From positions 1 to 64,000 of the forward strand of contig JAKQEA010000052.1 in NCBI GenBank assembly GCA_029558715.1: a DNA stretch of 64,000 bases, written 5' to 3'. The notes under the pieces are model-generated. The model had not been told where the DNA came from and made no database searches. It saw only the letters and a list, made by a program, of their open reading frames with translations. The DNA is from Bacteroidota bacterium. GTDB taxonomy: Bacteria > Bacteroidota > Bacteroidia > Chitinophagales > Chitinophagaceae. The position numbers and the translations under genes are program-made. Below, piece by piece: positions 29,521 through 53,575 of the stretch (the stretch's first letter is position 1; every line of letters begins with the position of its first letter).

Positions 29521-32043
29521 TTAAATACGAACCTGCTGCTCGACTTCAATTTCATTTTCAACTCTAATAAGGTTGTAGATGTCAATTTCTGCATTTAAAA
29601 CCTCAAAGCTAACAACAACAGAATATGGAATTTCTTCAGTTATATCTTTTTCCCATCCTTTATGCCCTATAATAGCAATTGAAAATTCTTCCGGAAGATT
29701 ATACGATTTGGCAACTAACCAATCCTTTTGTAAGGAACTGTCTTGCCTTCTTAATCCTTTCACACTTCCCCATGAAACATTTTCCCGAATACACCAAGGA
29801 ATATTTTCCGCACTGTCATCTTCTTCCTCTATTTCATCGCCCTCTGAATATAGGCTTACCCTTGTTTTGAATTGATTGTAACTTTCTCCAAACTTAGAGC
29901 TTTGCCAATCTAACCAAGTAGATAAATATGACTTTGTTAACCGCCTAGTTCGCCTCGTTTTAGAGGTAAAAGCTAAGGTTACTTCAATTAAGATGTCATA
30001 CTCATCACCAACTCTATTTAATTCTTCAGGTATTTTAATTGTATAAATTTCGGCTTGCTTTGCTGAGATTTTACTTTCAGCAGTTAGCGTAATTCGTTCA
30101 GCAAAATTTTGGGTAGCTCTGATTTTTGAAGGGATACCATAACCATACATTCTTATATTGTCAATTGAAGGGTTACGAAATTTATCTTCTGGCAATCTTG
30201 CTGACTGAACTATTAAGGCCCTTAAAAGGTTAGAAGTCGCTGCAGGGATTTCATTTAGCACTGCTCCTGCAATATGAGAAACCTTAGGTGCCGCATAAGA
30301 TGTGCCCACATCATAACCAATAGCATTACTCCCATCAAAAGTTGTTTTTATTATTTCAGCACTCGTAACTGGTAATGTTGAAATTAATGGGTTTGCATTT
30401 TTTTCTCTTATATAGTCGCCTCCGTATTCAACAATATCTGGCTTTATCATTTTCCAAATGCCCGGACCAGTCCTTGTTAGTGCAGATGGTTCATTTGCTC
30501 CCGCAAAAGACTCTCTATCCTCATCATTATATTTTGCATTACCTACCGAACCAACTGTTAATGCAAAGCAGCTTTGTGCAGGATTAGCAATTCTGCTCGC
30601 AGCTTCCAAAAGGTATTGAGGATAATTTCTTCCGGCTTGCAAATGTTGTAAAATTCCGGGATTTGAAGGAACAGGATTAGTGGGATTAATATTCCCTGCT
30701 GATATAATAAATAACTTGTCTTTATTGTGTGAAATAATATCAATCGCACCAGCCCACTCACTCATGTGAACTGTTTTGCATGGTCGTTTCGAGTTAATAG
30801 AAAGATTGAAAATTTTAACATCGTGACAATCATCAACAATATTATACATTAATTCAGGTGGATATAGTTCTTCAGGCAGCCATCCGTTATTATCAAGAAC
30901 TTTCGCATTTTGTATCCATAAGTTATGTCTATGGTTGCCTGTTTTTGGAATTGTATTTCCAAATAATATTGAACCTGTTACTTTAGTTCCATGACCACCG
31001 CCTGGCACCATGTCTGCCACTGATGCCTCTCTTAATATATACGATTTAGAATTCGCAGAGTCAATAGCATCTGTTATCATTCTATGCTCTTCCTGAATAC
31101 CGCTATCAATCACACAAATTTTTGGAGCATTATTTTCTGGTGCAGCAAATGAAACTTCTATAATTTCTTCTTCACCCGTATCAGGATGTTCAAAAGTCAA
31201 ATCATCATACTCTGAAACATCAAATAAATACTGATAGCTAAGAACAAAGTCTTTTAAAGCCCTGCCTGAAAATAATACACGGCAGCTAAAGCTATCATCA
31301 TATCCAACGAAGTCACTTTTTCTCTCGCCTTCTAATTCAGTAATAAATGCATCAAGCTCATCCTGGCGCTGCATTTCTAAATCTCCTCTTTGTCTTTCAA
31401 GTATTTCTTTTTTCTCAAGCCATCTTTCATAACGACGTTGAAATTGCCTTTCAGATTCATTCCGCTTTTTTGCCGGCGTTGCAGATATTTTTACATAGCA
31501 AGCCACACTTATATCCACAAGCAAAGCTTCGTCATCAGTAATATCCTCCCACTTTTCTTTCAGCTCGTCAGACAATATATAATCCACCCGCCATTGATTG
31601 CCTTCAATAATATTCCATAGTTTGGCAGCAGTATTCTTAAACTTTCCATTCTTCTTTATGAAATCTGCAATTTTAGTTTTCAAGCTTGTGAAATTGTCTC
31701 CCGATGCACCAATAATAAAGCCACCATCTTCTTCGGCTATTACTTCTATGCCAAAAGAATAAAGTTGCTCTGTATCAAAATCCTTACTGTCAATTTGAAG
31801 GAAAAGGGGAATGATATTAGAATCAGGCAAGGCCGGAAGTTGCTCTGACTCTCTTGCAATTAAATGATTATTCCACTCGTCAGCAATTTGATTAACTGAA
31901 TTTCTTAGTCCACGCCCATGTTGCTTCCGGTTGAATAGATTATCCGAAGTTTGTTGTGAAACACTTTTTTCGAATCGTCTTTTTTGAGCTTTATGTTTTG
32001 CAGAAATTTTCTTAGGCAAAGGGAGATGTGGAAAATCAGGCAT
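29521..32043 (-). CDS. ietS: Subtilisin-like S8 serine protease, IetS-type
   Basis: 840 residues without a signal peptide, so intracellular. A charged N-terminal region (about 1-300) with a coiled coil near 200-240 precedes the S8 domain. The triad is intact: D313 (CVIDSGIQEEH), H351 (GGGHGTKV) and S582 (VGTSYAAP). About 200 beta-rich residues follow. Its start is two bases from the AAA+ gene stop. The AAA+ ATPase/subtilisin pair matches the ietAS arrangement, known from plasmid stability work and reported as a phage-defence system. In this model the ATPase senses or restrains and the protease is the effector; that part is inferred. Confidence 0.8.
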   Translation of the reverse strand: MPDFPHLPLPKKISAKHKAQKRRFEKSVSQQTSDNLFNRKQHGRGLRNSVNQIADEWNNHLIARESEQLPALPDSNIIPLFLQIDSKDFDTEQLYSFGIEVIAEEDGGFIIGASGDNFTSLKTKIADFIKKNGKFKNTAAKLWNIIEGNQWRVDYILSDELKEKWEDITDDEALLVDISVACYVKISATPAKKRNESERQFQRRYERWLEKKEILERQRGDLEMQRQDELDAFITELEGERKSDFVGYDDSFSCRVLFSGRALKDFVLSYQYLFDVSEYDDLTFEHPDTGEEEIIEVSFAAPENNAPKICVIDSGIQEEHRMITDAIDSANSKSYILREASVADMVPGGGHGTKVTGSILFGNTIPKTGNHRHNLWIQNAKVLDNNGWLPEELYPPELMYNIVDDCHDVKIFNLSINSKRPCKTVHMSEWAGAIDIISHNKDKLFIISAGNINPTNPVPSNPGILQHLQAGRNYPQYLLEAASRIANPAQSCFALTVGSVGNAKYNDEDRESFAGANEPSALTRTGPGIWKMIKPDIVEYGGDYIREKNANPLISTLPVTSAEIIKTTFDGSNAIGYDVGTSYAAPKVSHIAGAVLNEIPAATSNLLRALIVQSARLPEDKFRNPSIDNIRMYGYGIPSKIRATQNFAERITLTAESKISAKQAEIYTIKIPEELNRVGDEYDILIEVTLAFTSKTRRTRRLTKSYLSTWLDWQSSKFGESYNQFKTRVSLYSEGDEIEEEDDSAENIPWCIRENVSWGSVKGLRRQDSSLQKDWLVAKSYNLPEEFSIAIIGHKGWEKDITEEIPYSVVVSFEVLNAEIDIYNLIRVENEIEVEQQVRI

Positions 32044-32045
32044 GT

Positions 32046-33047
32046 TTACTTACGCTTATTAAAAATTGTGTTTTCGGTTATTGATTGCAAAATATGATTT
32101 TGCTCTAAGGATTTTTTACCTTGTACAACACTTATTTTAGCAGCATCTTCTGCAACTTTTACTACTAGTGCAGCGGAGAAGCCTTTCAACTTTAATCCCA
32201 GGCTATTCCAGTTTATATCTTTTTCTTTATTTATTGCAGACAATGATTGTTGAAGTAGTTTTATAATTTCAACTTTCGAAGGTTTAGGCATTTCAATTAT
32301 TTCATCAAAACGCCTGAACAACGCAAAGTCGATAATCCCTTCAAAATTAGTAGTAGCAACCAATATACCCGGTGCATCATAGTCTTCCAAAAGGTTAAGT
32401 AAGATATTAACGATTCGGTGCATTTCACCAACATCCTGACCCTTTGACCTTGCCTTTGCTATAAAATCAAATTCATCTAAAAGCAGAACACATGGAACTT
32501 GCCTCAACGCTTCAAACAATTTTTTAAGGTTAGATGCCGACTCGCCTAAATAGGACGATATAATAGCTTCAAACCGAACTTTCAAAAAAGGAAGTCCGAT
32601 ATTCCATGCAATCCTTTCAGCTGTCATACTTTTACCACAACCAGGCGTACCGTATAATAAAATCTTTTGCTTGGGTTTAAGCCCCAGTTTTTTTAATCTT
32701 TCCCTGGCTACATATTCTTTTTCTATTCTTTTAATTTTATCTTCTACTAAATCGGGTAGCACCATTTCATGACGTAATTTTTCCCGATCAATATGTACTG
32801 CCAACGGTATATTATAACGCTTGTCAGTGGGTATAGTTACTCCTTTAGGTAATATTGATTTTAAATTACCCTGGAATGCCGTGTAAGTGTGAATATTCTT
32901 ATGAAGTATGTCCTTAAGACGGGCAGCAATTTTAGTATGCCCATTTTTACTTTCCTCTTCAATAATTCTTTCAGCTATTTTAACGATATCATCACTCGGA
33001 CTTCCTTCAATGGATTTAAATAGCCTTATCATCAGTTCTTGATTCAT
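32046..33047 (-). CDS. ietA: AAA+ ATPase partner of the S8 protease, IetA-type
   Basis: 333 residues. A helical N-terminal region (about 1-95) precedes the AAA+ core. Walker A is GTPGCGKS (133-140), Walker B VLLLDEFD (187-194), with sensor 1 in ILVATTNFE and an arginine-finger-like FRRFDE. The pore-loop-like region and YLGESASNLKKLF resemble unfolding or remodelling AAA+ proteins. It forms an operon with the protease, separated by two bases. A promoter lies 35 bases upstream. Confidence 0.85.
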   Translation of the reverse strand: MNQELMIRLFKSIEGSPSDDIVKIAERIIEEESKNGHTKIAARLKDILHKNIHTYTAFQGNLKSILPKGVTIPTDKRYNIPLAVHIDREKLRHEMVLPDLVEDKIKRIEKEYVARERLKKLGLKPKQKILLYGTPGCGKSMTAERIAWNIGLPFLKVRFEAIISSYLGESASNLKKLFEALRQVPCVLLLDEFDFIAKARSKGQDVGEMHRIVNILLNLLEDYDAPGILVATTNFEGIIDFALFRRFDEIIEMPKPSKVEIIKLLQQSLSAINKEKDINWNSLGLKLKGFSAALVVKVAEDAAKISVVQGKKSLEQNHILQSITENTIFNKRK

Positions 33048-33152: not shown

Positions 33153-35108
33153 TTATACCTTCATTCTTAACCTCTCCACTTCCTCTCCAATCAACCTTTT
33201 CACATCCATCTTAACCTGGTAATAATTGTCCAACACCTGCTGCGGACTTACATCCGTTACTTTGGGTATGTCGTGATAGGCAGCTACTTCAGCATTTAAC
33301 TTATCATGGTCGTTAATAATTTCCGAATGAAACATTTTGAGCTTAATTTTTTCATCGGGGTTATCAGCAACAAGACCGACAAACTCACCGGATGAAAGAG
33401 CGGCAATTTTGGATGCAGGAATGGCGGCGTCCAATTGTTTGGAATGGCTGATAGAAGTATCAGTCCGGTTAACAGAAACACTCTGCCTGTCCTGCATAAT
33501 TTTTCCAAAACGCTCTGATAAAAGTTTGCTGGTTTCACCCATCACCTGGCCGCTGATGATGTTGCCGGTGATGTTTACAATCACATCAGCCTGTTCCCGT
33601 CCGTAATCTTTTTTAAGCTGGCTAAAATCTTGCATCGCTAAAGTAGTAGCGACTTTGTTACTTCTTGCCGTTGCAATCAGGCTGTCAATATTGTTGAAGT
33701 AGATGGTTGGAAATTCATCAAACACCAAACTGCATTTCAACATATTCTTTCTGTTCACCTGCCGTATCAATCTTGAAATGTAAAGTGATAATACCGCTCC
33801 GTAAATCTGTTGCTTCTCCGGATTATTACCTACACAAACGATTTTGGGATGTTTGGGGTTATTAATGTCCAATGTAAAATCATTACCTGATAAAACCCAA
33901 TACAAAGCCGGTGCCGCTAACCTTGCCATACCAATCTTTGCTGAAGCAACCTGGCCTTCCAATTGTTCCATTGCATCGTTTTGATAAGCCGTGATGAATG
34001 GGTTTACCAATACTTCAATTTCAGGTTGTGTATTGAGTACGGGAAATAACTCATCATACTCCGCCTGCATCAGTTCAATTACATGCGGCAAGGTGCAATA
34101 TTTTCCATCTTCATATTTCCGCAGAAACCAAATAACGGCTGTAACAAAGTTGATAGGTGATTCCACAAAAAAATCTCCCTGCTTGTTTATCCATTCCCTG
34201 TTTAATCCTAATAAAATAGTTCTTGCACTTTCGGTGGCATCGGTGATGTCATTCATACTTGATGGGTCAAGAGGATTGCAGCGATGGCTTACAGAAAGGT
34301 TATCGAAATTGATGACAAAGAATGAAGGTTTTGTTGCGTATTGCTGTTTATTCCGCTGCAGCCAGTTGTAAGCAATGCGGCTTAAATCATCATACTTAAA
34401 ATCATACACGAACATGCAAAACCCTTTTTCAATATGCTGCTTAATGATATGTTGAATTACAAACCAGCTTTTACCAGCGCCGGGGCTGCCAATTACCAGC
34501 AGGCCACGAAAAGGATTGATGATGTTTATCCAGCTTTTCTTTATTCTTCCTTTCAGATTATATCTTGCCGGTAAATTGATGGAGTATTCATTGCTGATTA
34601 ATCTTTCTTCCTGCGGAAATGTTTCGTTCAATGAATTAAAAACATCATCGCCCAAATTGTATTTAATTAAACGGCTTAATAAATTTCCACCTGCAAGTAT
34701 GAGTAAAAAGCCAATACCTGTAACCGTCATGTAAATAATGGCTACAGTTTGAGCAGGATATTGCAATTTGAAAAACATATAACTTCCCAAATACAAAAGC
34801 AAGCCAATTAAAAGATAAGCGGCGATACTTCGCTTGTTTATTTTTTCATCCTTCTTTCCCTGTGCGCCGAATAAAGAAATAACCAGCAATCCTAATCCCA
34901 CAAATTTTGAAGTAAATGAGTTGGCAAACAATCCTGTTTTGGAAATATTGCTCATCAACCGGTCTGTGATGGTTGATTTTATTTCCCATTGCTCAAATGC
35001 TACATAACAGAAATAATAAAAGTGCAGCAGCAATATAAAAATGCTGGCAAACCTTGTAAGGTCTATTATCTTCCGCAGCCCCTGCTCATTCTCCCCCGTA
35101 ACAGACAT
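33153..35108 (-). CDS. TraG/VirD4-like conjugative coupling ATPase
   Basis: 651 residues. Four N-terminal membrane segments (about 20-40, 68-82, 97-115 and 122-142) anchor it. The cytoplasmic ATPase has Walker A GSPGAGKS (207-214) and Walker B CSLVFDEFPTIY. DFSQLKKDYGREQADVIVNI is typical of TraG/TraD-type proteins. It links the relaxase-DNA complex to a secretion channel. It lies 18 bases downstream of the relaxase gene in the same operon. No channel genes are seen in the window, so transfer would need a helper element. Confidence 0.88.
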   Translation of the reverse strand: MSVTGENEQGLRKIIDLTRFASIFILLLHFYYFCYVAFEQWEIKSTITDRLMSNISKTGLFANSFTSKFVGLGLLVISLFGAQGKKDEKINKRSIAAYLLIGLLLYLGSYMFFKLQYPAQTVAIIYMTVTGIGFLLILAGGNLLSRLIKYNLGDDVFNSLNETFPQEERLISNEYSINLPARYNLKGRIKKSWINIINPFRGLLVIGSPGAGKSWFVIQHIIKQHIEKGFCMFVYDFKYDDLSRIAYNWLQRNKQQYATKPSFFVINFDNLSVSHRCNPLDPSSMNDITDATESARTILLGLNREWINKQGDFFVESPINFVTAVIWFLRKYEDGKYCTLPHVIELMQAEYDELFPVLNTQPEIEVLVNPFITAYQNDAMEQLEGQVASAKIGMARLAAPALYWVLSGNDFTLDINNPKHPKIVCVGNNPEKQQIYGAVLSLYISRLIRQVNRKNMLKCSLVFDEFPTIYFNNIDSLIATARSNKVATTLAMQDFSQLKKDYGREQADVIVNITGNIISGQVMGETSKLLSERFGKIMQDRQSVSVNRTDTSISHSKQLDAAIPASKIAALSSGEFVGLVADNPDEKIKLKMFHSEIINDHDKLNAEVAAYHDIPKVTDVSPQQVLDNYYQVKMDVKRLIGEEVERLRMKV

Positions 35109-35126
35109 GATACACTATTTTTGAAA

Positions 35127-36410
35127 TTAGAAATTGTTGTTATTGCGTTTTCTCCTTTTCCTTTTCTTCTTCATCAGATTACCAGGCACATTGTCGTACT
35201 GTTCTTTAGTGGATAGTAATACATCAAGCGGCGTTTCTATTTTTGATGATGCTGAGATGGATTTTTCATGTTCCTTTTGTTGATTAAACACTTTTTGTAG
35301 TCCGCCTGCAGCACTACCTGTTTTATTATCTTCCTGCTCAAGCACTTTATTTGCTGCTGTTTCTGAAAGCCTGCTTTGAATTGCTGCGGCACTGTAACCC
35401 TTACCCAAATCACTTCCGTTGAAAACGCATTTGGTAATGTTGTCAACAAACGTAATTCCATACAATCTGCCCTCTGCATTTTGGCGAAGCAACACATAAA
35501 TATTTTGCTTACTTAAGTTGTCAACCAAATTCTTTATTGATTTATTTGATATTGGCAGTGCTTCATCTAATGCCGATTTGGTTCTATGCTTCAACGGTTC
35601 TCTTGCAATTTCATTGGCTTCAAATTTTTTCTCCAGGTTATCCAGTATTGGTTTGCAGCTGATACTACTTGCTTTGATAGGAACACCCACTTTATTTCCA
35701 TTGGAATCTAAAATTCGATACACCAATCCACGGCTCTTATAAATCCTGCCTTCTTCCTTGCCTCTGTCTGCAATTACATTGAACTGTTTTAAAGCTGCAT
35801 TAAACTCGGGCAGTGATGTGAATTTGTATTGATTGAAAACAGCACCAACTGTATTGCTAATAGCTCTTTTGGTTTCATGCTTTCCATAAATCACTTTCGC
35901 TGCATCTACAGGTTTTATTCCAGGGTTTCTTAATTCTGCCTGCCGTTCTGCTTTGATTAACCCAAACTGCTGCTCAATTTCTTTTCTGGCTTTTTCACTC
36001 TGGTTTCTGCCGATGTTGTGGGTATTTATTCGGCTGCCATCTACTTTGATTGTAGTGCTTACAATGTGAATGTGTGGATGACCAGCATCTTCATGTTTGT
36101 AAACAAGGAAGGGCTGCTCACCAAAACCAATCTTGCTCATATAGAGCTCTGCAATCTTCAAAAGTTTTTCATCCTGCAGTTTTTCAGATGAGCTGAAATT
36201 GAGTGAAACATGCAGGGTTTTTGTAGTCGCTCTTTCATTCAAAATATTCAAGCGCTCAAAGCCTGCCAGCTTTTGATAAAAATTCATCTGCTTTGCATCT
36301 TTTAGATAGTTGGCGGCATGTAAACAAACAGCTTTGCCCTTCTGTGTTTTTTGCTCGTTGTAGTTCAACACAGCTTCAATGCTTTTCGGTATCGTTATTT
36401 TAGCAACCAT
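35127..36410 (-). CDS. Relaxase/mobilisation nuclease (MobB type)
   Basis: 427 residues. The relaxase domain has a likely nucleophile Tyr17 (AVLNYNEQK) and the metal-binding triad H111, H113, H115 (GHPHIHIV). LHVSLNFSSSEKL is the usual strand before the active site. The C-terminal half is charged and ends in a Lys/Arg-rich tail. It nicks oriT and leads the strand into the recipient. The gene overlaps the small accessory gene by 16 bases. The oriT candidate lies upstream of that gene. Confidence 0.88.
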   Translation of the reverse strand: MVAKITIPKSIEAVLNYNEQKTQKGKAVCLHAANYLKDAKQMNFYQKLAGFERLNILNERATTKTLHVSLNFSSSEKLQDEKLLKIAELYMSKIGFGEQPFLVYKHEDAGHPHIHIVSTTIKVDGSRINTHNIGRNQSEKARKEIEQQFGLIKAERQAELRNPGIKPVDAAKVIYGKHETKRAISNTVGAVFNQYKFTSLPEFNAALKQFNVIADRGKEEGRIYKSRGLVYRILDSNGNKVGVPIKASSISCKPILDNLEKKFEANEIAREPLKHRTKSALDEALPISNKSIKNLVDNLSKQNIYVLLRQNAEGRLYGITFVDNITKCVFNGSDLGKGYSAAAIQSRLSETAANKVLEQEDNKTGSAAGGLQKVFNQQKEHEKSISASSKIETPLDVLLSTKEQYDNVPGNLMKKKRKRRKRNNNNF

Positions 36411-36790
36411 TGTTCATACAGTTCGTTTACTTTTAAATTGATTTGTTCTGTCTTACTGATAAAAGCCTGATGCAAGGCGTCGTATTGTTGTATCCATTGC
36501 CTGAACTCCGGTATCTTATCCAGCAGGTGCAATTTGTGTACTGCCTGGTTAAAATTGTTACCGATAGCATTGAGTTCTTTTTTCAACTCCAGCATCTGTG
36601 TTAGAAAATCATCAGCTGATTGATTTCTGTAGGTAATAGTAACAGGCCTTTGCAGTAATACTTTTCGTATGTAGTTACTCAGGTCTTTGTCGGTTGATTT
36701 TTCCTGCAACCTTGTAAGCCGGCTGAGTTCGGTATCATTCATTCTTGTTTTTACAAAATGCTTCCGCAATTCCTTCGTCACCTTTTCCAT
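36395..36790 (-). CDS. Relaxosome accessory protein (MobA/MobC type)
   Basis: 131 residues. The N-terminal part (KHFVKTRMNDTELSRLTRLQ, then DLSNYIRKVLLQRP) is a ribbon-helix-helix-like DNA-binding domain. The ELNAIGNNFNQAVHKLH motif is characteristic of bacterial mobilisation proteins. The rest is a coiled coil. It should bind beside oriT and assist the relaxase. It is the first gene of the minus-strand operon mobA-relaxase-coupling protein. Confidence 0.82.
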   Translation of the reverse strand: MEKVTKELRKHFVKTRMNDTELSRLTRLQEKSTDKDLSNYIRKVLLQRPVTITYRNQSADDFLTQMLELKKELNAIGNNFNQAVHKLHLLDKIPEFRQWIQQYDALHQAFISKTEQINLKVNELYEQWLLK

Positions 36791-36862: not shown

Positions 36863-36991
36863 CAAGATGACCGCAAATGTGCCACATTTGTACATCTTGC
36901 CATGTGCAAGACCGGGCACATTAAGCCTTTTATAAAATCTCCTGTGTTCTGCCCTTTCAAACTCATACCTTGTACAGTATAAAATTTATAC
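36863..36991. other. Candidate oriT: cluster of inverted repeats
   Basis: The 272-base gap upstream of the mobilisation genes has no gene. It holds nested repeats CAAGATG (36863-36869) / CATCTTG (36893-36899) around the perfect palindrome CAAATGTG-c-CACATTTG (36874-36890). Next is ATGTGC (36902-36907) / GCACAT (36916-36921), followed by TAAGCC, and GTATAAA-a-TTTATAC (36977-36991). Relaxase recognition sites are typically an inverted repeat just before nic, upstream of the mob genes. The exact nick site cannot be called. Confidence 0.5.
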
Positions 36992-37062: not shown

Positions 37063-38766
37063 TCAGAGTTTATTCTTGCCAAAATACCGATGGAAATCGG
37101 GCATGGGTTCTTCCTGAAACCGAAGCCCTCCCTGATGATATATTTCATCAAAAAAGGCTTGCTCATAAACAGAAAACTGACAAAGGGTATCAGTCATTTT
37201 CGCATAGGGCTTGAACTTGTCCGGATACTTCAAAAAATATCCACAAACATCCAATTCATCAATTGCATAAATATGTCCGTGAAGTAACTTTCTGTTATTT
37301 AAAAAATTAAGAAATTTACCCTGTGAGTTCCGTGTATGGTGTTTTAATGTAAGCAGGAATATTTCAAGGTCATCTATGTAAACACTCCAGGGATAATTAT
37401 CAGCTTCATCTTTCCTCAACAATAACTTTAAATCAGTCTGTAAACTTCCGAATCTTTCTAAGGTAACAACAATAGAAAAAACAGAGTGATATTTTGAAGG
37501 ATTGATAGTGTATAGTGTATTGCCACTTTTATCTTTTACAGGAAAGCAATTTTTGCTATTAAAGAAATTTTCTACTCGTTTACACTGGTCGTATCCATGC
37601 TGAACCGAATCTTTAAAATCATCCTTGAGCCTTACAAGTGCTTTCTCTATATCACGGAAGGGTTCTCTTAATTTTGATGCCTTCGTTTCAACGATAATAG
37701 CAGTGCCTTTTGTTAGTATCAGTAGGTCCTGTTCAAAACCCTCTTTAACAAAGTAATTTTCATAAAAGAAGGACGAAGAATTTCGAAAGAAAGATTTAAA
37801 CATAGCAGCAACCTTTTGCTCCAGTTGCTTTTCACGGTGTCTGCGGATTTTATCTTTTATACTCTCATCACCGGAAAGAAATTCGTAAATGCGTCTATAG
37901 ACAGCAATCGGGATTTGTTTTTGACAAATATGAAGGTATTTATTCTCAGCTATTTCTAAAATAGGGGCTGTTTCAATCGGGTTTTTATCAGTGTAGTATC
38001 GAAAAGATTTTAGTGATGTTGGTTTGAAGGAAAACAGCTCCAGAAATTTATCAACTTTGCCATTATCAAGAGTATGATATAAATCTTCTTTTGAAAACAT
38101 CAGATAGGCATGAGTTTTAGCATGAAATGAAAGTAGAGCATTACTGATTTCTTCAGGAAGTTGATTGATAGCGTCAGAAAGAGATGCTTGGTTGGAGTGA
38201 ATCTTGTTATGAAATTCATTGAACTCTTGGGTATGCGTAAACTCCATTACCTGGTTAAACCTGATTTTTGTCACTAACTCTGTCACTTTATACACTTCAA
38301 TCAGGAAATCAACGTCAAGGCCAAAAGCATCAATTATTTTATCCTCAAATGGCTGAAACACCGTTCTGATTTTTTCTAAATCTTGCTCCACATAGCTTAA
38401 AACTCCGTTATCAAAATAGTTTCTGAAAGCCATTTCATGTATTGCTGCATCTTCAGTATAATCTTCGAATTTCTGAATGTGGTAATGACTTCTAATTTCA
38501 TTTACCTTATCGGCAAGTTCACCAAGATTTTTGGGATTAAATTCAAATGATTCTGTTCCTCTTTTTTCAGCAAAAGCATTAAGTGCAATCAGGTAAAGAA
38601 AATCTTTGAGCTTGGACTTGAATTTGTTCAATTCAATGTCATCTCCATCTTCCGGCCTGCGTTTAATGAAATAAGCAAAAAAGCCTGCAAAGCTTTCGGG
38701 GTCATACTTGCTTACTTCACTAATTAACTCATCAATTTTATTCTCCAGTTTTTCGTTCTTAATCAT
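37063..38766 (-). CDS. PD-(D/E)xK-like nuclease, fifth gene of the Wadjet operon
   Basis: 567 residues. The first ~300 residues are mainly helical and unrecognised. The C-terminal half has a restriction-endonuclease-like core: E316 (KQLEQKVAAMF), D347 (GFEQDLLIL), E360 and K362 (AIIVETKASK), the order and spacing of a PD-(D/E)xK site. It begins nine bases after the jetD stop on the same strand, so it is almost certainly co-transcribed with jetABCD. It is not one of the four canonical Wadjet components. It may be an added effector or a separate nuclease cargo gene; its function is unknown. Confidence 0.6.
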   Translation of the reverse strand: MIKNEKLENKIDELISEVSKYDPESFAGFFAYFIKRRPEDGDDIELNKFKSKLKDFLYLIALNAFAEKRGTESFEFNPKNLGELADKVNEIRSHYHIQKFEDYTEDAAIHEMAFRNYFDNGVLSYVEQDLEKIRTVFQPFEDKIIDAFGLDVDFLIEVYKVTELVTKIRFNQVMEFTHTQEFNEFHNKIHSNQASLSDAINQLPEEISNALLSFHAKTHAYLMFSKEDLYHTLDNGKVDKFLELFSFKPTSLKSFRYYTDKNPIETAPILEIAENKYLHICQKQIPIAVYRRIYEFLSGDESIKDKIRRHREKQLEQKVAAMFKSFFRNSSSFFYENYFVKEGFEQDLLILTKGTAIIVETKASKLREPFRDIEKALVRLKDDFKDSVQHGYDQCKRVENFFNSKNCFPVKDKSGNTLYTINPSKYHSVFSIVVTLERFGSLQTDLKLLLRKDEADNYPWSVYIDDLEIFLLTLKHHTRNSQGKFLNFLNNRKLLHGHIYAIDELDVCGYFLKYPDKFKPYAKMTDTLCQFSVYEQAFFDEIYHQGGLRFQEEPMPDFHRYFGKNKL

Positions 38767-38775
38767 TTCGCAGAC

Positions 38776-39918
38776 TCAGTTTAAGATTGAATTGAGTTGA
38801 TGTGAGATGTAAGAATTGGTAATACGTTCCTGCTCTAATCGCTTATTGTTGTTCTGTAAAAAGTTATACAGTGCCGATTCATCGGTATTGAGGTTTTCCA
38901 GGGATAATTTCCTGTAAGTTGAGAAAACGGAGAATTGACTAAATTGATTATAAGTTTCTTCATCCATTAAAAAACTCTTTGCATCAGGGTAATATTGCCT
39001 GATAATATTCAGCATTTCAAATCCGGCTGCATCGAGGTCAAACCAGCAATACAAATCAGTATTTTCAAGCCAGGTTATGTGTTTGCTTACTCTGCTCTTG
39101 AAACCCTCACCAAAAATTGCAATCGCATTTTTTACTTTTGGAAACGAAAGAAAACAAGCTTTGTTTTCAATAATGAATACTCTTTGAGGTTGCCATTTTA
39201 GTGATGCGGAATCTTCTATTGTCAGGGCCAATTCATCGAAGCCTACAACAGGTTTAAAGTCGTCATCCAATATTCGTATTTGAGTATAAATAGTTGGTCT
39301 TTTAATATAGTATCGGTCAAGAAAATCAGTTGCTTTTGGGTCAAGCCATTCTTGGGGTAAAATGATGTCGAGAAGCTTTTTCAAAGCCGCCGAATTGGTT
39401 TCAATAAATTTCGAATCTACTTTAATAGGCAGCTCTCTCAGGTATAGATTATGAGGTGGTTTATTGCTTTTAAAGTAACAGCATACTTTTATTAAACCAT
39501 GTATATTATCTGATTGTGATAAAAGGAAAGAGGCATTATCCTTAACCCATTCAGCTAATTCAGGAAACCCATTAATTAGTAGCTGAATAGATTGCTGAAT
39601 TTTAGAATAGTCTCTTTCTTTTTTAGTGAAATAAAAGAAGTCCTCAGATGTTTCAAAATAGATTTTAGCTGGCACTTTTTGTTTAGTTCCTTCTATGATT
39701 TTCTCCTTCCATTCAACAGTATAGCCTTTTCCTTTTACCTCTTTTGAATGCTGGTATAAAGGAACAATTGCAGCTTTCAGTTCATTAAAATTTGTGCCTG
39801 ACAGCTTTTTGTTTGATGGTAATGACAAAGGGAAAATATCCTGCTCATTCAAAATGGCTGTAATAACTTTATTAAACAGCTTTTCCGATTTTTCTAAAAG
39901 TTCTTTTGGTGTTATCAT
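38776..39918 (-). CDS. jetD: Wadjet component JetD (Toprim nuclease; DUF3322/DUF2220)
   Basis: 380 residues, the usual size. The N-terminal DUF3322-like part is followed by a topoisomerase-VI-like Toprim domain. Visible catalytic residues are E251 (VFIIENKACFLSFP), D294 and D296 (CWFDLDAAGFEML). The ENKxxFL and DLDxxG motifs are those of JetD/MksG, the subunit that cuts circular DNA after loop extrusion by the JetABC complex. Its ATG overlaps the jetC stop by four bases. All key acidic residues are present. Confidence 0.88.
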   Translation of the reverse strand: MITPKELLEKSEKLFNKVITAILNEQDIFPLSLPSNKKLSGTNFNELKAAIVPLYQHSKEVKGKGYTVEWKEKIIEGTKQKVPAKIYFETSEDFFYFTKKERDYSKIQQSIQLLINGFPELAEWVKDNASFLLSQSDNIHGLIKVCCYFKSNKPPHNLYLRELPIKVDSKFIETNSAALKKLLDIILPQEWLDPKATDFLDRYYIKRPTIYTQIRILDDDFKPVVGFDELALTIEDSASLKWQPQRVFIIENKACFLSFPKVKNAIAIFGEGFKSRVSKHITWLENTDLYCWFDLDAAGFEMLNIIRQYYPDAKSFLMDEETYNQFSQFSVFSTYRKLSLENLNTDESALYNFLQNNNKRLEQERITNSYISHQLNSILN

Positions 39919-42900
39919 TCTCTTGTTTCGGCTAACTGTTTAAAGCTTTCTTTTTTCTCATAATACTGCTCCATAGTAAGATTGTATAAAACAGAACTCT
40001 TTTTATTCTTTATTTCTACAAAATGAACAGCATTGATGTAAGGCTCTGCAATATTAATTTTATCAAGCGGTGTAACTACCAGAATCTGCAAATTAAGCTG
40101 TGCACAAAATTCCATGAGGAACTGACTTTTTTCAGGGTCTAACTTACTGAACGCTTCATCTACCGTTATAAACCGAAGGCTTTTGTGCTGCTTGCCAACC
40201 TGGAAAATGCCAAACTGATGGGCAATTGCAGCGCCTAAAATGGCGTAGGTAAATTGAGCCTTTTGACCGCCAGAATAGCTGGCTGTATTATCGTGGTATT
40301 GTCCGGCTTTATTGTCAACAACAGAATATTCTCTTGCACTGAATACAAGCCAGTTTCTTACATCAGTTACCTTTCTGCGCCAGACTTCTTCTTTTTGTAA
40401 TTCACTTATCAGTTCTTTGATTTTATTAAATATTTCTAACCTGTATGCCTCATCATTTTTTTGTTTTTCAAAATCAAGTGCATTGGGTATTGCTGTGTTC
40501 AATTGACCCCTGAATATATTTACTTCATTTTCGCCTCTCAACTGGCGACTCTCAAGTTGCAAATATGTATCTGGATGCCGGTTAAAAGTTATTTTTTTTA
40601 GCGGCACATTCAGTTCTTCAATCATATCCTCAATTTTGTTCAGTTCATTATTGAGCCATGCCCTGTAACTGGTAAGTGCATCGAGCATACTTTTATCCAT
40701 ATAATCCCTGAACCTTCGCTTATGTTCAACAAGCCGTTGTGTTTGTATTGTTTTGTATAAATCTTCCAAATCATCGAGGCCGGATAAGTCGGCCTTAATA
40801 TTCATCACATCACCGCTCCAGTTAGCAAACTCATTTGTAATTTTTTCACCCGGGTTTATAAAAGCCGCAATCAACCCGGTAGTTTCCAGTTCAAGTTTGC
40901 TGACAGCATTCCCCGCTGTTTTCTGTTTCCCTTTCAATTTTACAGCAGCCTGAATCCGCATATTGTCAAATTGTTCTAATGTACGGATGTCGAATAGTGT
41001 AATTTCAGCATCAGTCAGGAACTCAACAATAGCTTGTTCGCCGGATTCTTTTAGTTCTTCATAATTGATTTTTAGTTTGCGAAGGTTTTTGTCATTATAC
41101 TCTCCATCGAGCTTACTGATTTTTGTAATTAAAGCATCCCTCTTTTTGTTTTCATCCTGCAATTGTTTTTCAACTTCTTTTAGCTGATTACTGATGGTTT
41201 CATACGCATCCGATGATTTTTTTAGCTCCTGAACCTGTTTGTTTAAGGATGTTATTTTCTCAGCATGTTGAGCCCAGTTTATATCGTCGAAATTCTTTAG
41301 TTGTAAAAGATTGGATAATGTTTGGATTTTAGTTTGAAGAACAATGATAGTCGGGTTAAGCTCTTTAATTTTATTTGTAAGTGCTGTATGTGTTTTTTCG
41401 TGGTTATATTTTTCTTGCTGCAAATAGTTCACGGTTGCCTTATTATCCCAGCCCAACCTGTACTTTGATTTATTCCATCTTCCCGGCCTGTCATCTTTTT
41501 CATGGCGATTAACATTTCGCAAAAGGCCATTTGAAGTAATGGCTTTGGGAGAACCGTAAAATACTTCTAAATCATCAGTACAATAATAGTTGAAACGGTC
41601 CAGTAAAAATGTTTCAAGCCAATTTTTATAAACAGAATCTTTTAATTCAATCTTGTTAATCATATCGTCATCTCCTGTAGGCCAGCGATGCAAACTGTTA
41701 GACGGTTTCCGCTCAATTTTGTGATATACAATTTTTGTTTGCATATCATTGTTATAGATAAACTGGTTTACAGCTTTACTGAATTTTTCAGGAACTAATA
41801 GTTGCATTGAAAAATTATGTAACAATTTTTCAATTGAATCTTCCCATTTCTGTTCGGTTGATTTTACCTTAATGAGTTCTCCAACAAACGGTATTTCATC
41901 TTCGGTTGTTTCAAGAATACTTATCAATCTTGCCCTCGCATTAATTAAATCATCCGGAATACGGTTTTTTCTTGAAAGCAGCGAAGTGATTTGCTGTTGC
42001 AGGTTTTCAATTTTGCTTTCTACACTTTCCTGCTCAATTTTCAGTCTGAGCTTTTGCTCAGTAAGTTTTTCCGCTTCAGCAGGTACTGTTTTATTTAATT
42101 CCAGTACTTTATTGTAATTATTTCTGAAGATAGTGGCATCAATATCTGTATCAAGGTTTAATTCACTACAAAATTTTAAATAACGGGCATTTTCTGTACT
42201 CTTGTGATTTCTCTTGTCAGTTTCGCTATCTATGTCTTTATTCAGTAATGAAACCTGGCTGTCAATATTCAATGCAGCTTTTTGTGCAATAAGCTGCCCC
42301 TTTTCTTTATCAAGTTTTTCTAAAGATTCTGTAATTGCGGCTTTCTCCTTTTGAGCAATTTCAATATCAAGTTCAAGACGTTCTACTTCTTTTTCAAGTA
42401 ATCCATCCTCAATCTTACCTAAATAGAATGGCATTTGTTCTTCAACCAAATCAAGTCTTTCTTTTTTGTTTCTTAGCTCCGTTAGCGTTTGCTTATTTTT
42501 TATTACAGGTGTAAGTAATTCAAGCTGCTTTTCATCTTTCACAATCTTTTTATGACTATCCAATAAGTCATAATAATGAGTATATAAGTTTTTGAATTGT
42601 TCTTCGGCATCTGATTCTTCTAACATTTCCTGCCGTATAAAATTTGTCAGGTCGCCAAGAACTTTAATCCCAACTGTCTGGCCAAAAAGTGAAAGTGCTT
42701 TATCTCTCAGGCCGAATAATTCACTGAACCGGGCTGCATATTCTTTAAAGCTGTTATATATTTCGGTTTTGGCATACTGCTTAACCAGTTTCTTTTTCCA
42801 GTCGCCTTTGAAATCAAAATGGTCTTTACCGAAATGGTCATTTATATTTAATAGGTAAGGTGAAACGATAAATATTTTCTGTAAACCACCATTGCTAAAC

Positions 42901-43316
42901 CAACGAACCTGTACCAAAGTTATGGTATGCTGCGTTCCTGAGTTTTGAAAACAGGCAAGTAATACCGAATAAGGGTTATCTGATTTTGTACGCAGTTGCT
43001 CCGTCTTTGATTTTTCTTCAGCTTCAGAAAATATTTTACCGTGAAAGCCCCAGAAGTATGAATTTTCATCTCTTTCTTTTTTCGATTCAGCGCCTGATGA
43101 CTGGTTGTAAAACCTTTTATTAGTTGGTACAAGGATGGTGAGTAAAGCATCAATCAATGTTGTTTTGCCACTGCCATTAGCACCCGTAAGCAGTGAGGTA
43201 CGGCCATCTGGTTGCAATTTATACACTTTACCATTAAATGTACCCCAGTTAAACACTTCCAGGTATCTTAACCGGTAGCCATTATCTGCATTATTATTAC
43301 TAAACAGGGTTGACAT
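39915..43316 (-). CDS. jetC: Wadjet component JetC (SMC-like ATPase)
   Basis: 1133 residues. An N-terminal ATPase half has Walker A GANGSGKT (45-52) and R/D-loop-like sequence. Two long coiled-coil arms (about 260-480 and 640-800) flank a hinge-like globular part near 500-630. The C-terminal half has signature YSGGQKAQFTYAILGAA and Walker B LRFITVDEAFSKLDPEKS. It matches MksB/JetC-type SMC proteins that extrude DNA loops and sense plasmid-sized circles. All ATPase motifs are intact. It overlaps jetB by 17 bases. Confidence 0.9.
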   Translation of the reverse strand: MSTLFSNNNADNGYRLRYLEVFNWGTFNGKVYKLQPDGRTSLLTGANGSGKTTLIDALLTILVPTNKRFYNQSSGAESKKERDENSYFWGFHGKIFSEAEEKSKTEQLRTKSDNPYSVLLACFQNSGTQHTITLVQVRWFSNGGLQKIFIVSPYLLNINDHFGKDHFDFKGDWKKKLVKQYAKTEIYNSFKEYAARFSELFGLRDKALSLFGQTVGIKVLGDLTNFIRQEMLEESDAEEQFKNLYTHYYDLLDSHKKIVKDEKQLELLTPVIKNKQTLTELRNKKERLDLVEEQMPFYLGKIEDGLLEKEVERLELDIEIAQKEKAAITESLEKLDKEKGQLIAQKAALNIDSQVSLLNKDIDSETDKRNHKSTENARYLKFCSELNLDTDIDATIFRNNYNKVLELNKTVPAEAEKLTEQKLRLKIEQESVESKIENLQQQITSLLSRKNRIPDDLINARARLISILETTEDEIPFVGELIKVKSTEQKWEDSIEKLLHNFSMQLLVPEKFSKAVNQFIYNNDMQTKIVYHKIERKPSNSLHRWPTGDDDMINKIELKDSVYKNWLETFLLDRFNYYCTDDLEVFYGSPKAITSNGLLRNVNRHEKDDRPGRWNKSKYRLGWDNKATVNYLQQEKYNHEKTHTALTNKIKELNPTIIVLQTKIQTLSNLLQLKNFDDINWAQHAEKITSLNKQVQELKKSSDAYETISNQLKEVEKQLQDENKKRDALITKISKLDGEYNDKNLRKLKINYEELKESGEQAIVEFLTDAEITLFDIRTLEQFDNMRIQAAVKLKGKQKTAGNAVSKLELETTGLIAAFINPGEKITNEFANWSGDVMNIKADLSGLDDLEDLYKTIQTQRLVEHKRRFRDYMDKSMLDALTSYRAWLNNELNKIEDMIEELNVPLKKITFNRHPDTYLQLESRQLRGENEVNIFRGQLNTAIPNALDFEKQKNDEAYRLEIFNKIKELISELQKEEVWRRKVTDVRNWLVFSAREYSVVDNKAGQYHDNTASYSGGQKAQFTYAILGAAIAHQFGIFQVGKQHKSLRFITVDEAFSKLDPEKSQFLMEFCAQLNLQILVVTPLDKINIAEPYINAVHFVEIKNKKSSVLYNLTMEQYYEKKESFKQLAETRE

Positions 43317-43890
43317 AATTACTTAGCCTATTCTTGATTTCTTCTAATTTATCATTGCTGATAAATGCTTTAATAATTCTTTTTATCTCATATTGATTAT
43401 TGTCTTTGTTAGCAACATCTTCACGGTTTAATTTCAGTATGCCGATATTCAGCAAACTGTTTATTGGTTTTGATAAATCTTTCCATAGCTTACTTTTATT
43501 GTTATGCTCTTTATAAAACAATTCAATACGTTCTTTAATTTCCTTTTGCGTTAAATAGAACTTTCTCCCATCACTTTTCACATCATTTTCTTCCAGGCCT
43601 TCTCTTAAAATTACGGCAAGCAATGTTGCTTCGTAATTCAAAGATTGCTTTTTCATAAGGCGTGGCAAGGGATTATCATCATTCTCATCAGCTTCTGGTT
43701 GTAATACTCTTGCAAATCCATCCTGCTCAGAAATGATAAGTTCCATCCCTATTTTACCAAAATACTCTTGTATGGCCGACTGCCAGGCAGATAATTCCCG
43801 CCAGATGTTTTTATCATCCGCATATAGCGGCCCCTGAAGAAGTTTTATAATAACCGCAGCAAATGGGGCTCTTGAAATTTTAGTTTCCAT
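43300..43890 (-). CDS. jetB: Wadjet component JetB (DUF4194; MksE-like)
   Basis: 196 residues, typical length. VIIKLLQGPLYADDKNIWRE, LSAWQSAIQEYFGKIGMELI and the NYEATLLAVILREGLEEND segment are DUF4194 features, a winged-helix kleisin-associated (KITE) subunit. It bridges JetA and the JetC heads. The start lies one base from the jetA stop and the 3' end overlaps jetC. Confidence 0.88.
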   Translation of the reverse strand: METKISRAPFAAVIIKLLQGPLYADDKNIWRELSAWQSAIQEYFGKIGMELIISEQDGFARVLQPEADENDDNPLPRLMKKQSLNYEATLLAVILREGLEENDVKSDGRKFYLTQKEIKERIELFYKEHNNKSKLWKDLSKPINSLLNIGILKLNREDVANKDNNQYEIKRIIKAFISNDKLEEIKNRLSNYVNPV

Positions 43891-43891
43891 A

Positions 43892-45355
43892 TTATTGTGT
43901 TGACAGTTTAGTATAAATAACTATTGGTACATTCATTTGTATATCGCCTACCAAAATTGGTTCTTTAGCTTCTTCAAGTATGATATGGTGAGACTCGGAA
44001 GTGGCTATTGAGAAATAGCCGACAATTTCACTTAGTCCATTTTCAATTCCATATTCATCAACAATCTCTTTTAATGTTACCTGGCTTTTTCCCTCAAGCA
44101 TTGCATCAATTCGCTGTAACAATTTTTTTCTGTCAATGGTAAACTGGTCAAATAATATTTTTAAATCCGGGTTTGTATCATCTTCACTGCCGTCAGGAAA
44201 TAAAATTCCGGTAATTATATCTTTCTCCTCACCGGGTTCCCACCTGTCAAAAAGATTAATGTTAGGTTCATCTTCAATAGTAAGAAAATCGTCTTCTTTT
44301 ATTTTCGTATCAATCAATGAATAGGCCATTTGCCGTATTTCACCAATCAGTTCCATCGCCCTGCGTCGTTCCAGTAAATTTTTTTCTGATAAAACCCTGC
44401 TCAGTTTTTCGCTTAGCTTCCTATTTGAATCAATTACCCTTCGTCCTGATACATGCAAGTATCTCTTTAAGTGTTTTAAGAACCGGTCATTATTATAATC
44501 AATATTTTGTTCAGTTAAGAGTTGATACAATTTCTCAGTTAACTGAGAAAATTCCTGCTGCCTTCTTTCATCCATTAAAAACTCCCAAAAGGCTTTGAAA
44601 CTCTTTCCCTGTGGCTTCTGGTCAATTTCATCAAGCGCATCAAGAGCAAATACTAATAGAGTTCCTTTGGCAATATCTTTTTCAGTGTACTTCCGCTGAA
44701 TATCTTTTCTTATTTGTTCAAAATTCTGTTCTACTTCACTAAAATCTGCAAGCAGCTCTCTTGCCATTTTATTTAAATCATAGAATTGTTCTTTTATTTC
44801 AGTTTCATCAAATACAGAGGGTTTTTTGCCAGACTTCAGCAAGTTAATTTCATTTTCAATTTCCCATTTTTTGTTTTTAAGTTCTTCAATTCTTACTTCT
44901 GCATCTTCATTTGTCTGCTCAATCATTTTTTGAAGCTTAAAAAAAATATCCCGGAACCGGCTGTTGGTTCCAACATGGTCCCTGCGTTCTAAATCTGTAA
45001 GCCATCGTAATGCTTTAATTGTATCAGGAGTTAATTCATGAAGGTCTTCGCCTTCATCATTTGGATACTTAGAAAGAAAACCACTGTTACTCCATTTTTC
45101 AATATACTGAGCTGCCCTTACTGAAAAATCGTCGAATAAAGTACCTGCTTCAAGTTCTTCATCTTTTTCTTCATAAGAGAGTTCTTCCATATAGCCTTCC
45201 AGCTTGCTGCGTAACTCACTATTTGAAATGGTGGTGATATTAGCATTTGAGAAAACTTTCTGAAAAAAAGAAATGATAAAAGGGGCATTTTTTGCCCTTA
45301 AAAGCAGTAGCGGCTTTGCTGTTTTAAACTGTAAAAGTATTTCCTCAAAGGTCAT
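43892..45355 (-). CDS. jetA: Wadjet component JetA (DUF3375; MksF/kleisin-like)
   Basis: 487 residues. KALRWLTDLERRDHVGTNSR then FRDIFFKLQKMIEQT (about 115-150) is the DUF3375 hallmark, followed by coiled coil to about 240. RRAMELIGEIRQMAYSLIDT and a C-terminal winged-helix-like region with TLKEIVDEYGIENGLSEIVG complete it. JetA acts as the kleisin that closes the SMC ring. With jetB, jetC and jetD it makes a complete type I Wadjet set. It follows radC by 56 bases with no terminator between. Confidence 0.88.
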   Translation of the reverse strand: MTFEEILLQFKTAKPLLLLRAKNAPFIISFFQKVFSNANITTISNSELRSKLEGYMEELSYEEKDEELEAGTLFDDFSVRAAQYIEKWSNSGFLSKYPNDEGEDLHELTPDTIKALRWLTDLERRDHVGTNSRFRDIFFKLQKMIEQTNEDAEVRIEELKNKKWEIENEINLLKSGKKPSVFDETEIKEQFYDLNKMARELLADFSEVEQNFEQIRKDIQRKYTEKDIAKGTLLVFALDALDEIDQKPQGKSFKAFWEFLMDERRQQEFSQLTEKLYQLLTEQNIDYNNDRFLKHLKRYLHVSGRRVIDSNRKLSEKLSRVLSEKNLLERRRAMELIGEIRQMAYSLIDTKIKEDDFLTIEDEPNINLFDRWEPGEEKDIITGILFPDGSEDDTNPDLKILFDQFTIDRKKLLQRIDAMLEGKSQVTLKEIVDEYGIENGLSEIVGYFSIATSESHHIILEEAKEPILVGDIQMNVPIVIYTKLSTQ

Positions 45356-45411
45356 ACCTCTAAAATAAGATATTTACGCTAAAGAAATGAAAAAGAATGA
45401 TTTAGAAGGTG

Positions 45412-45885
45412 TTACAACAGTCCTTCATCAGCAAAGCTGTAATAAGCCTCGCTGGTTATAATGATATGGTCAATCACCCTTATATCATGATACTTTGCAG
45501 CTTCTTTTATTTTTAGCGTTAGTTCTTCATCAGCCCTGCTTGGTTTCAGGTTGCCGGATGGATGGTTGTGAGAAAGTATAATACTTACAGCAAGCGATTT
45601 TATTGATGCAGCCAATATCAATCTTGGGTCGGCAACAGTGCCGGTTATACCTCCTGATGATGCATCATAAACTCCGGTTACCCTATTAGCCCTGTTCAGG
45701 AATACTACTTTAAATTCTTCCAGCATTTCAATTTTATTTTCATCCCAAACTTGTTTGAGTACATTGTAAATATCTTTTGAGTCTTTTACTATTGGCCTTT
45801 CAGAAGCTTTTATTTTTGTTTTATAAACCAGTTCTACTTCTGCTACTCTTGTCCATTCCGGAAATTGCATTATCATCTGTTCCAT
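45412..45885 (-). CDS. radC: RadC-like JAB-domain protein
   Basis: 157 residues. It lacks the helix-hairpin-helix part of chromosomal RadC and keeps the JAB/MPN+ domain. Metal-binding residues appear in LSHNHPSGNLKPSRADEEL (HxHPSG...D). KVVFLNRANRVTGVYDASSG and HDIRVIDHIIITSEAYYSFA are standard. Short RadC proteins are regular passengers of Bacteroidota mobile elements; a DNA-processing or anti-restriction role is suspected. It is the likely first gene of the Wadjet operon here. Confidence 0.85.
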   Translation of the reverse strand: MEQMIMQFPEWTRVAEVELVYKTKIKASERPIVKDSKDIYNVLKQVWDENKIEMLEEFKVVFLNRANRVTGVYDASSGGITGTVADPRLILAASIKSLAVSIILSHNHPSGNLKPSRADEELTLKIKEAAKYHDIRVIDHIIITSEAYYSFADEGLL

Positions 45886-52473: not shown

Positions 52474-53508
52474 TTAATTATAAACTCCCACCATCTCACC
52501 TTTTACAAAATCATCACAAAGCTGAAAAGCTTTTTGAGTTCTTAGCTGTGCTGTACCACCATACAACAGCGATTTCATTTTTGCCTCATCATCCTTATAG
52601 GTCCTTACATTTTGAAAGTAACCTGTGATTGCATTGTATGCGCCAAACACTGTTCCTTTGGTGGCTTCGGTTTGTTGTGTGGGACTGGCAAAATTGTATT
52701 CATATACAGCATCACACATATTCTTAAAACAGGTACTGAGTTCATCCTGTTCTCCATTTTGTATATTCTGCAATACTTCTTTATTAGGAACCATTGCCAT
52801 TTGTATCAGTTTCTGCACTTCCTTATCAGTAATGCGAACCTTAGCCCATTGGTTAAAAATGCCTTCTAATTGCTGACTAAGCTGGTTGGAGATACCTAAT
52901 ACTTTGTGGGCTTCTTCCAGCCGTTCTTTTACATTGGCAGTATGCCGGATTTTAATGGAGTTGGTATGGTTTCTTAAAGCTGCATTCAATGTATTGTTAC
53001 ATACAATTCTCACAGGAGTAAATGCGGCTACAATACTTCCAAACCCATCATGCGAAGTGGTAAGGAACAAATACTTTTCAATGCAATCGGTATTGGCTAC
53101 GTTGATATAGCCGGGCAATTTAGCTGTAATGAAAATCTTTTCTCCTTTACCCAATGCTCCTGCAGTTTCATATTGAATACCATCTCCACCAACTATCGCA
53201 TCAAAGAAACTAAACGCATCAACATTCTGTACTACTTCATAATCTTTGCCTAAACGGTCTCCTAAAATGGCGTTGGTATCAGGGCGGTAAGTATAGAAGG
53301 AAGATTTTGAAATTACCTCCGTTCCATCATCCAATTTGTGGGTGTTGGGTCTTTTCAATACTTGAAAATCAAGCCCTGCAAATTGCAATGCTTCTTTGCT
53401 GGTGGGATAATCCTGTACTATTTGCCCTAAGCCATGCCATGCTTTTTCTTTTACACTAAAGAAACTGTGCTGCTGCGTTTGTTCATTGAAATTAATATTG
53501 TGTGCCAT
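52474..53508 (-). CDS. DUF932 / phage-plasmid-like protein
   Basis: About 344 residues from the ATG at 53508 (MAHNINFNEQTQQ); the frame runs further upstream into ssb but that part is not conserved in type. FFSVKEKAWHGLGQIVQDYP then TSKEALQFAGLDF is the DUF932 (TIGR03299-like) start. FITAKLPGYI, FLTTSHDGFGSIVAAFTPVR and IVCNNTLNAAL follow. The family is common on plasmids, phages and integrative elements beside ssb; its role is unknown. It lies 67 bases downstream of ssb on the same strand. Confidence 0.82.
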   Translation of the reverse strand: MAHNINFNEQTQQHSFFSVKEKAWHGLGQIVQDYPTSKEALQFAGLDFQVLKRPNTHKLDDGTEVISKSSFYTYRPDTNAILGDRLGKDYEVVQNVDAFSFFDAIVGGDGIQYETAGALGKGEKIFITAKLPGYINVANTDCIEKYLFLTTSHDGFGSIVAAFTPVRIVCNNTLNAALRNHTNSIKIRHTANVKERLEEAHKVLGISNQLSQQLEGIFNQWAKVRITDKEVQKLIQMAMVPNKEVLQNIQNGEQDELSTCFKNMCDAVYEYNFASPTQQTEATKGTVFGAYNAITGYFQNVRTYKDDEAKMKSLLYGGTAQLRTQKAFQLCDDFVKGEMVGVYN

Positions 53509-53575
53509 AGTTGTAAATTTTAGTTTGATGAAATAAAAAGCAGCACCACACATTTGCATGATGCTGCCTGATTGT

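Follow-up and report, generated by a model that had tools for sequence, protein, structure and literature searches.

Type I Wadjet is usually regarded as a self-contained four-gene defence system, in which JetA, JetB and JetC together form a loop extruder and JetD is the nuclease; other Wadjet members cut small circular DNA. Here, we consider a Wadjet locus in a window of 64,000 nucleotides (positions 1 to 64,000 of contig JAKQEA010000052.1, assembly GCA_029558715.1) from a Bacteroidota bacterium of the family Chitinophagaceae, in which jetD is directly followed by a further nuclease-type gene, hereafter gene 5. We conclude that gene 5 is probably an exchangeable second nuclease, co-expressed with Wadjet, in the modular defence region of a mobilisable element of the Chitinophagaceae. 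The domain recognized in its product, NERD (PF08378), is listed in the available parts of the literature for Mokosh type I and Nhi-like systems (PMC10952713) and for a rare system of the YprA family (PMC12458937). In the accessible sections of a Wadjet review (PMC10586767), no mention of a fifth or additional gene was found, and a knock-out study of Wadjet in Clostridium, as far as its text was available, deals with jetABCD (PMC12287153). No publication on a NERD gene behind jetD was found among the matches listed, with most subscription papers outside reach. Added to this is the description, seen in part, of the PADLOC subtypes with accessory genes, in which the extra genes are generally commoner with the core than as orphans (PMC8565338).

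The jetABCD genes constitute a complete type I Wadjet in one operon. All four are typed as type I by Pfam and PADLOC, the best PADLOC models being JetA1, JetB1, JetC1 and JetD1. The motifs expected of such a system are intact: GANGSGKT, SGGQ and VDEAFSKLD, which we take to be the Walker A, signature and Walker B motifs of the JetC ATPase, are identical in all 14 related JetC sequences, and (I/V)EN and D(L/M)DAAG, presumably of the Toprim type, are retained in all 14 JetD sequences. The first-pass annotation, made from the DNA letters, had described a complete operon with every ATPase and Toprim residue present, and this description stands. Across the 14 Wadjets, JetD diverges faster than JetA–C (67–70% versus 84–90% identity between groups). 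The six genes from radC to gene 5 all lie on the minus strand, with coordinates exactly as first given (Table 1), and the order, direction and close spacing originally reported are likewise borne out: radC and jetA are separated by 56 bases and jetA and jetB by 1, jetB and jetC overlap by 17 bases and jetC and jetD by 4, and the gap between jetD and gene 5 is 9 bases.

The gene 5 product comprises a mostly helical N-terminal half of approximately 300 residues, to which no family could be matched, and a C-terminal NERD-type domain; the long unrecognized N-terminal region noted at the outset is thus confirmed, family matches being confined to the C-terminal domain. The NERD match scores 24.6 bits, over the curated cut-off of 22.1. 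The proposed nuclease pattern of E316, D347, E360 and K362 shows no exception among the 10 aligned homologues, which reach down to approximately 26–32% identity. No PADLOC family was matched at an expectation value (E) of 0.01 or below and no NCBIfam model at E≤0.1, and a search of the PDB by sequence gave a single match that is not credible (E=0.4). A match of the N-terminal half to Ku (E=0.029, under the cut-off) was dismissed as chance. One homologue, at locus L016, consists of the nuclease half only (40% identity over residues 289–530) and the C-terminal half therefore looks like a separable domain. In AlphaFold models built from six sequences, the predicted local distance difference test score (pLDDT) is 82–90 at residues 311–360 and 391–430, and 49–68 at residues 361–390, directly after the active site; the predicted core runs helix, three strands, helix, strands. 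The best Foldseek entry is R.BspD6I2 (E=1.4e-3, probability 1.00, template modelling (TM) scores 0.34/0.50, root mean square deviation 9.2). The other top entries are R2 endonucleases, Nt.BspD6I and Can2, with FokI and McrC lower; the leading ones are, we assume, PD-(D/E)xK nucleases. The nuclease fold suggested initially is thus not refuted by structure prediction, but the models are only partly confident and the best Foldseek match is of the value just given. Gene 5 is intact and under purifying selection, with ratios of non-synonymous to synonymous divergence (dN/dS) of 0.080, 0.110, 0.089 and 0.043 in four pairs, synonymous divergence (dS) being saturated in the last.

The protein was matched in 7 of 395 genomes of a phylum sample and 7 of 396 of an order sample, which have three genomes in common, the window's among them. 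Besides the window's gene, there are four close orthologues (93, 78, 77 and 77% identity), all in Chitinophagaceae, and all five genes lie in the same block, radC-jetABCD-gene 5-mobC-mobB-traG, with jetD to gene 5 distances of 9, 10, 4, 4 and –8 bases. JetD1 was matched at E≤0.001 in 51 of the 396 order-sample genomes, at 53 places of which several are weak (e.g. 5.8e-4) or partial; five of these 51 genomes have gene 5. The order samples used for JetD1 and for gene 5 have the same size and, by their genome handles, are the same draw. Gene 5 comes next in five of the 30 jetD places with loci examined, gene maps around jetD having been drawn for 24 regions and the window. A scan across GTDB with two short peptide patterns of gene 5 gave at least five loci, which is a lower bound because only these two patterns were used.

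More distant homologues occur on an Exiguobacterium plasmid (29% identity, 96% of the length), on a Halalkaliarchaeum plasmid (23% identity over 56%), in Pseudalkalibacillus caeni, in two more genomes of the class of P. caeni, and at six loci of the Bacteroidota sample (L016–L021). When the stretches around all of these were searched by tblastn with the window's Jet proteins, none was found; nor was a JetC match found in the P. caeni genome, in a search that lacked a positive control. As to whether homologues directly follow jetD, the expectation thus holds for the close ones and fails for the distant ones examined. In P. caeni, the homologue lies directly behind genes for an AAA_5 ATPase and a 432-residue protein, which we read as McrBC-like, and ahead of a Schlafen-type helicase gene. 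Proteins of approximately 770–790 residues that are weakly like gene 5 (20–27%) are encoded at L017:9691-10449, L018:9074-11374 and L021:8770-11115; the first two adjoin traG-type genes, and of these proteins neither of the two scanned has a NERD match. The homologue at L131:6496-10700 lies two genes past a recombinase-like gene (by eye) and has no jet genes. Neither gene 5 (by two peptide patterns) nor JetC (by six) had a relative among viral contigs, and phage records gave no match to gene 5.

The first-pass annotation had offered two readings of gene 5, namely a second defence gene riding on the transcription of Wadjet, or part of an augmented Wadjet. The former fits better because the fifth place varies among otherwise similar Wadjets and the distant homologues examined lack jet genes nearby. 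We favour the view that gene 5 encodes a defence protein which cleaves DNA autonomously and is made from the Wadjet transcript, and regard this as on balance probable, its autonomy being suggested by the genomic context. In the scheme that we envisage, JetABC would extrude loops and JetD would cut small circular DNA, with an exchangeable NERD-type nuclease gene behind them. Gene 5, given the 9-base gap, would be translated from the Wadjet transcript. Its product would be a second DNA-cleaving defence protein that works without JetABCD; DNA would be cut by its C-terminal domain, and the target recognized by its N-terminal half. Wadjet and gene 5 together fill one cargo slot, between radC and mobC, of an integrated element that carries more defence genes in a second slot.

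Alternatively, gene 5 might be a true Wadjet accessory whose nuclease degrades or further cuts the DNA linearized by JetD, or works on the DNA that JetABC holds, such that plasmid clearance would become faster or irreversible. We consider this rather unlikely, although it has evidence in its favour. Apart from the position of gene 5 within approximately 10 bases of jetD in all five close orthologues, there is the shared recent history of the five genes, which we also count towards our favoured reading. Compared with its nearest relative, the window has a dS of 0.44 for jetA, 0.36 for jetB, 0.59 for jetC, 0.53 for jetD and 0.42 for gene 5, against 0.94 for radC, 1.45 for mobB and 1.26 for traG, and identity goes up near the start of jetA and down past gene 5. 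Between L013 and L015, the values are 0.21–0.34 for jetA, jetC and jetD, 0.21 for gene 5 and 0.43 for traG, radC being inside the similar block and identity falling behind gene 5; between L014 and L015, they are 0.09–0.21 for the jet genes, 0.15 for gene 5 and 0.47 for traG, with a similar block that extends into mobB. In all three close pairs, two of them with a member in common, gene 5 and Wadjet thus share a low dS, lower than that of traG. These values and the identity profiles indicate that jetABCD and gene 5 have recently moved as one five-gene cassette, and the idea that gene 5 has lately been freely mobile with respect to Wadjet is rejected for the close pairs.

Over a longer time, the gene in the place behind jetD changes. 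In 11 related Wadjet elements, jetD is followed by gene 5 in five, by a gene for a 469-residue protein in two, by a phospholipase D (PLD)-like gene with a 690-residue gene in one, and by no such gene in three, where there is just a small opposite open frame. A core subunit would be expected in nearly all close relatives, with homologues solely alongside jet genes and carriers forming one Wadjet lineage. Gene 5 is present in 5 of 11 elements and 5 of 51 genomes, and full-length distant homologues lack nearby jet genes. Nor do its carriers form one clade, as judged by the approximately unbiased (AU) test (p=0.00515 on JetABCD and 0.000143 on TraG); the single-gene trees have open forks, and those of JetABC, JetC and JetD are open or weakly supported around the carriers. 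With such forks, how many events occurred is uncertain, and gain is indistinguishable from loss.

A related proposal takes the position after jetD to be a slot for swappable effectors. Wadjet would be the shared sensor and extruder, to which a NERD, HEPN-like or PLD-like protein would be coupled by turns, and recombination close to the jetD end would exchange one for another. This overlaps with an accessory role and appears improbable to us, despite three different occupants directly behind jetD, whose gaps to it range from –8 to 50 bases. The gene for the 469-residue protein has a gap of 0 to jetD in both of its carriers. These two differ by 25–35% in jetD DNA and by 6–8% across most of the cargo, with the switch in identity within approximately the last 50 bases of jetD; the JetD tails after RLEQERIT are alike and the remainder of JetD is different. 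In the cargo dS amounts to 0.23, versus 2.69 in jetD. The two as one clade are not rejected on JetABCD (AU p=0.183) and are rejected on TraG. A homologue of the 469-residue protein (E=2e-23, 22% over 374 residues), fused to a GGACT domain, also lies 43 bases after the jetD of a Wadjet with only 52% JetD identity. Two further homologues, however, are on plasmids with no annotated jet genes nearby, and three of the 11 elements have no occupant. Pfam finds no match in the 469-residue protein, HEPN included; our term ‘HEPN-like’ presumes that its RNxxxH motif is of that kind. The PLD-like gene, 50 bases after jetD, matches Pfam PLDc_2 below the cut-off (E=0.0015) and PADLOC PDC-S05 (4.8e-11).

The element to which the locus belongs was correctly taken to be mobilisable, as the MobC, relaxase and YWFCY/TraG domains found by Pfam indicate. 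At E≤1e-60, the relaxase had matches in 120 of the 394 genomes surveyed in the family, and the best 27 of the mobB matches were compared. Their recurrent backbone is ssb, DUF932, radC, mobC, mobB and traG, not every piece being seen in every stretch. In the interval from radC to mobC, 11 have Wadjet (one of them on a truncated contig that lacks radC), six have other genes, seven have no clear gene (one with a 167-residue opposite open frame), one has a distant piece of radC, and two (L112 and L116) have no radC in the fetched stretch. It should be noted that the gene maps use longest open frames, so that gene starts may be off; that the radC piece, in L117, is at the far edge, with approximately 14 kilobases of other, unsearched genes before mobC; that L110 is a 3.9-kilobase contig with jetD only in part; and that mobC of L062 was detected by tblastn only. 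The six other occupants are GmrSD; SLFN/AlbA; a SMEK-domain restriction protein with a short Argonaute (L113:10952-13956); a split AlbA-like gene; a tyrosinase/VWA gene; and a 472-residue gene without known family. Since radC and mobC flank cargo also in elements without Wadjet, they are the borders of a cargo slot. The radC gene, which had been grouped with the Wadjet operon, is accordingly a backbone gene of the element and is ruled out as a Wadjet component.

In the second slot, behind traG, the window has an IetAS-type defence pair. L059 and L060 have Gabija there, L013 has a type IIG restriction-type gene, and L012 has a 1019-residue gene whose Ppl-like match is partial. A non-coding box before mobC, with the look of an inverted repeat, is strongly conserved in ten aligned elements (the window and nine others) and is a candidate origin of transfer (oriT). 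That gene 5 is passive or element-maintenance cargo, which protects or processes element DNA or acts in an addiction-type manner with no defence role, has little probability: it adjoins the candidate oriT and the mob genes, and the distant homologues of L017 and L018 (22–27%) are also beside traG-type genes, but the same slot in Wadjet-free elements holds GmrSD and short-Argonaute systems, and the P. caeni homologue has the ATPase and helicase neighbours described above.

Some further observations concern the element. In L059, L060, L061, L062 and L114, an opposite-strand frame of 87–128 residues, alike by eye, lies between the cargo and mobC; none was seen upstream of mobC in the elements with gene 5. 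L075 (G516:C1) has a second, distant type I Wadjet (approximately 34% in JetC) end to end with the traG gene of an element whose radC and mobC have no Wadjet between them. Past the ssb/DUF932 end of the window's element, at 54475-56172, is a GmrSD_N-domain gene that is HEC-05-like (PADLOC 5.9e-52).

Several points weigh against gene 5 as an autonomous second nuclease. The fold match is weak, with no Foldseek hit at E≤0.001 and low TM-scores, and the mean pLDDT of the partly confident models is 56 for the whole protein and 63 for the domain. Two Bacillota homologues that were scanned fall under the NERD cut-off (15.1 and 20.1 versus 22.1 bits), and the close group amounts to just five genomes of one family. 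The jump in DNA identity at the border of jetD is seen for the gene of the 469-residue protein and not for gene 5. Finally, the divergence shared with jetABCD and the tight spacing would, at the level of sequence, fit a Wadjet partner equally well.

Table 1. Features of the Wadjet locus and of the surrounding element in the window.
Feature	Position	Strand	Basis
DUF932 backbone gene, upstream of radC	52474-53649	-	Pfam DUF932 6e-68
ssb backbone gene	53576-53968	-	Pfam SSB 5e-16
radC-like JAB gene; element backbone, upstream border of cargo slot 1	45412-45885	-	Pfam RadC 3e-37
jetA, DUF3375	43892-45355	-	Pfam DUF3375 9.3e-95; PADLOC JetA1
jetB, MukE-like	43300-43890	-	Pfam DUF4194 9.2e-33; PADLOC JetB1
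jetC, SMC-like ATPase	39915-43316	-	PADLOC JetC1 1040 bits; SbcC-type ATPase (Pfam); motifs
jetD, Toprim-type nuclease	38776-39918	-	Pfam JetD_C 2.6e-36 and DUF3322; PADLOC JetD1 3.5e-127
gene 5 (fifth gene), 567 residues	37063-38766	-	Pfam NERD E=3.9e-5, residues 314-405
codons E316 to K362, predicted active site E...D347...E360xK362	37681-37821	-	sequence
part of conserved non-coding box, candidate oriT	36887-36919	-	alignment of 10 elements; putative function
mobC	36395-36790	-	Pfam MobC_2 3.3e-13
mobB, relaxase	35127-36410	-	Pfam Relaxase 5.8e-29
traG/YWFCY coupling protein	33153-35108	-	Pfam YWFCY 5.3e-54, T4SS-DNA_transf 1.3e-20
ietA, AAA ATPase, cargo slot 2 behind traG	32046-33047	-	PADLOC IetA 2.5e-76
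ietS, subtilase, cargo slot 2	29521-32043	-	Pfam Peptidase_S8 1.8e-34; PADLOC IetS 5.7e-65

The Wadjet itself is thus ordinary; what sets the locus apart is the nuclease-type gene next to it, exchangeable and apparently unreported so far, within a mobile element of modular build. The elements that differ behind jetD, with nothing, the NERD protein, the 469-residue HEPN-like protein or the PLD-like and 690-residue pair, form a natural series in which the question of whether Wadjet works with a second effector can be addressed directly. The element also illustrates how a mobilisable element gathers defence modules in fixed slots among backbone genes. Compared with type I Wadjet (JetABCD; relatives MksBEFG and Ept), the same four genes are present with the same order, overlaps and motifs; what differs is the extra co-directional nuclease-type gene 9 bases past jetD and the setting in a cargo slot of a mobilisable element. 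With the NERD proteins of Mokosh type I, Nhi-like and YprA-family systems, gene 5 has the NERD-type active site in common, whereas it has no PADLOC match (E≤0.01), approximately 300 unassigned N-terminal residues and a position beside Wadjet. As far as the available part of their description goes, the PADLOC accessory-gene subtypes likewise tie an extra gene to a known core operon (PMC8565338), but the homologues of gene 5 found outside one element family are orphans. Lastly, Tn7-like transposons with defence cargo, as presented in the accessible part of that work (PMC8649781), similarly carry variable defence genes between conserved element genes, while the backbone here is ssb-DUF932-radC-mobC-mobB-traG and the hosts are Chitinophagaceae.

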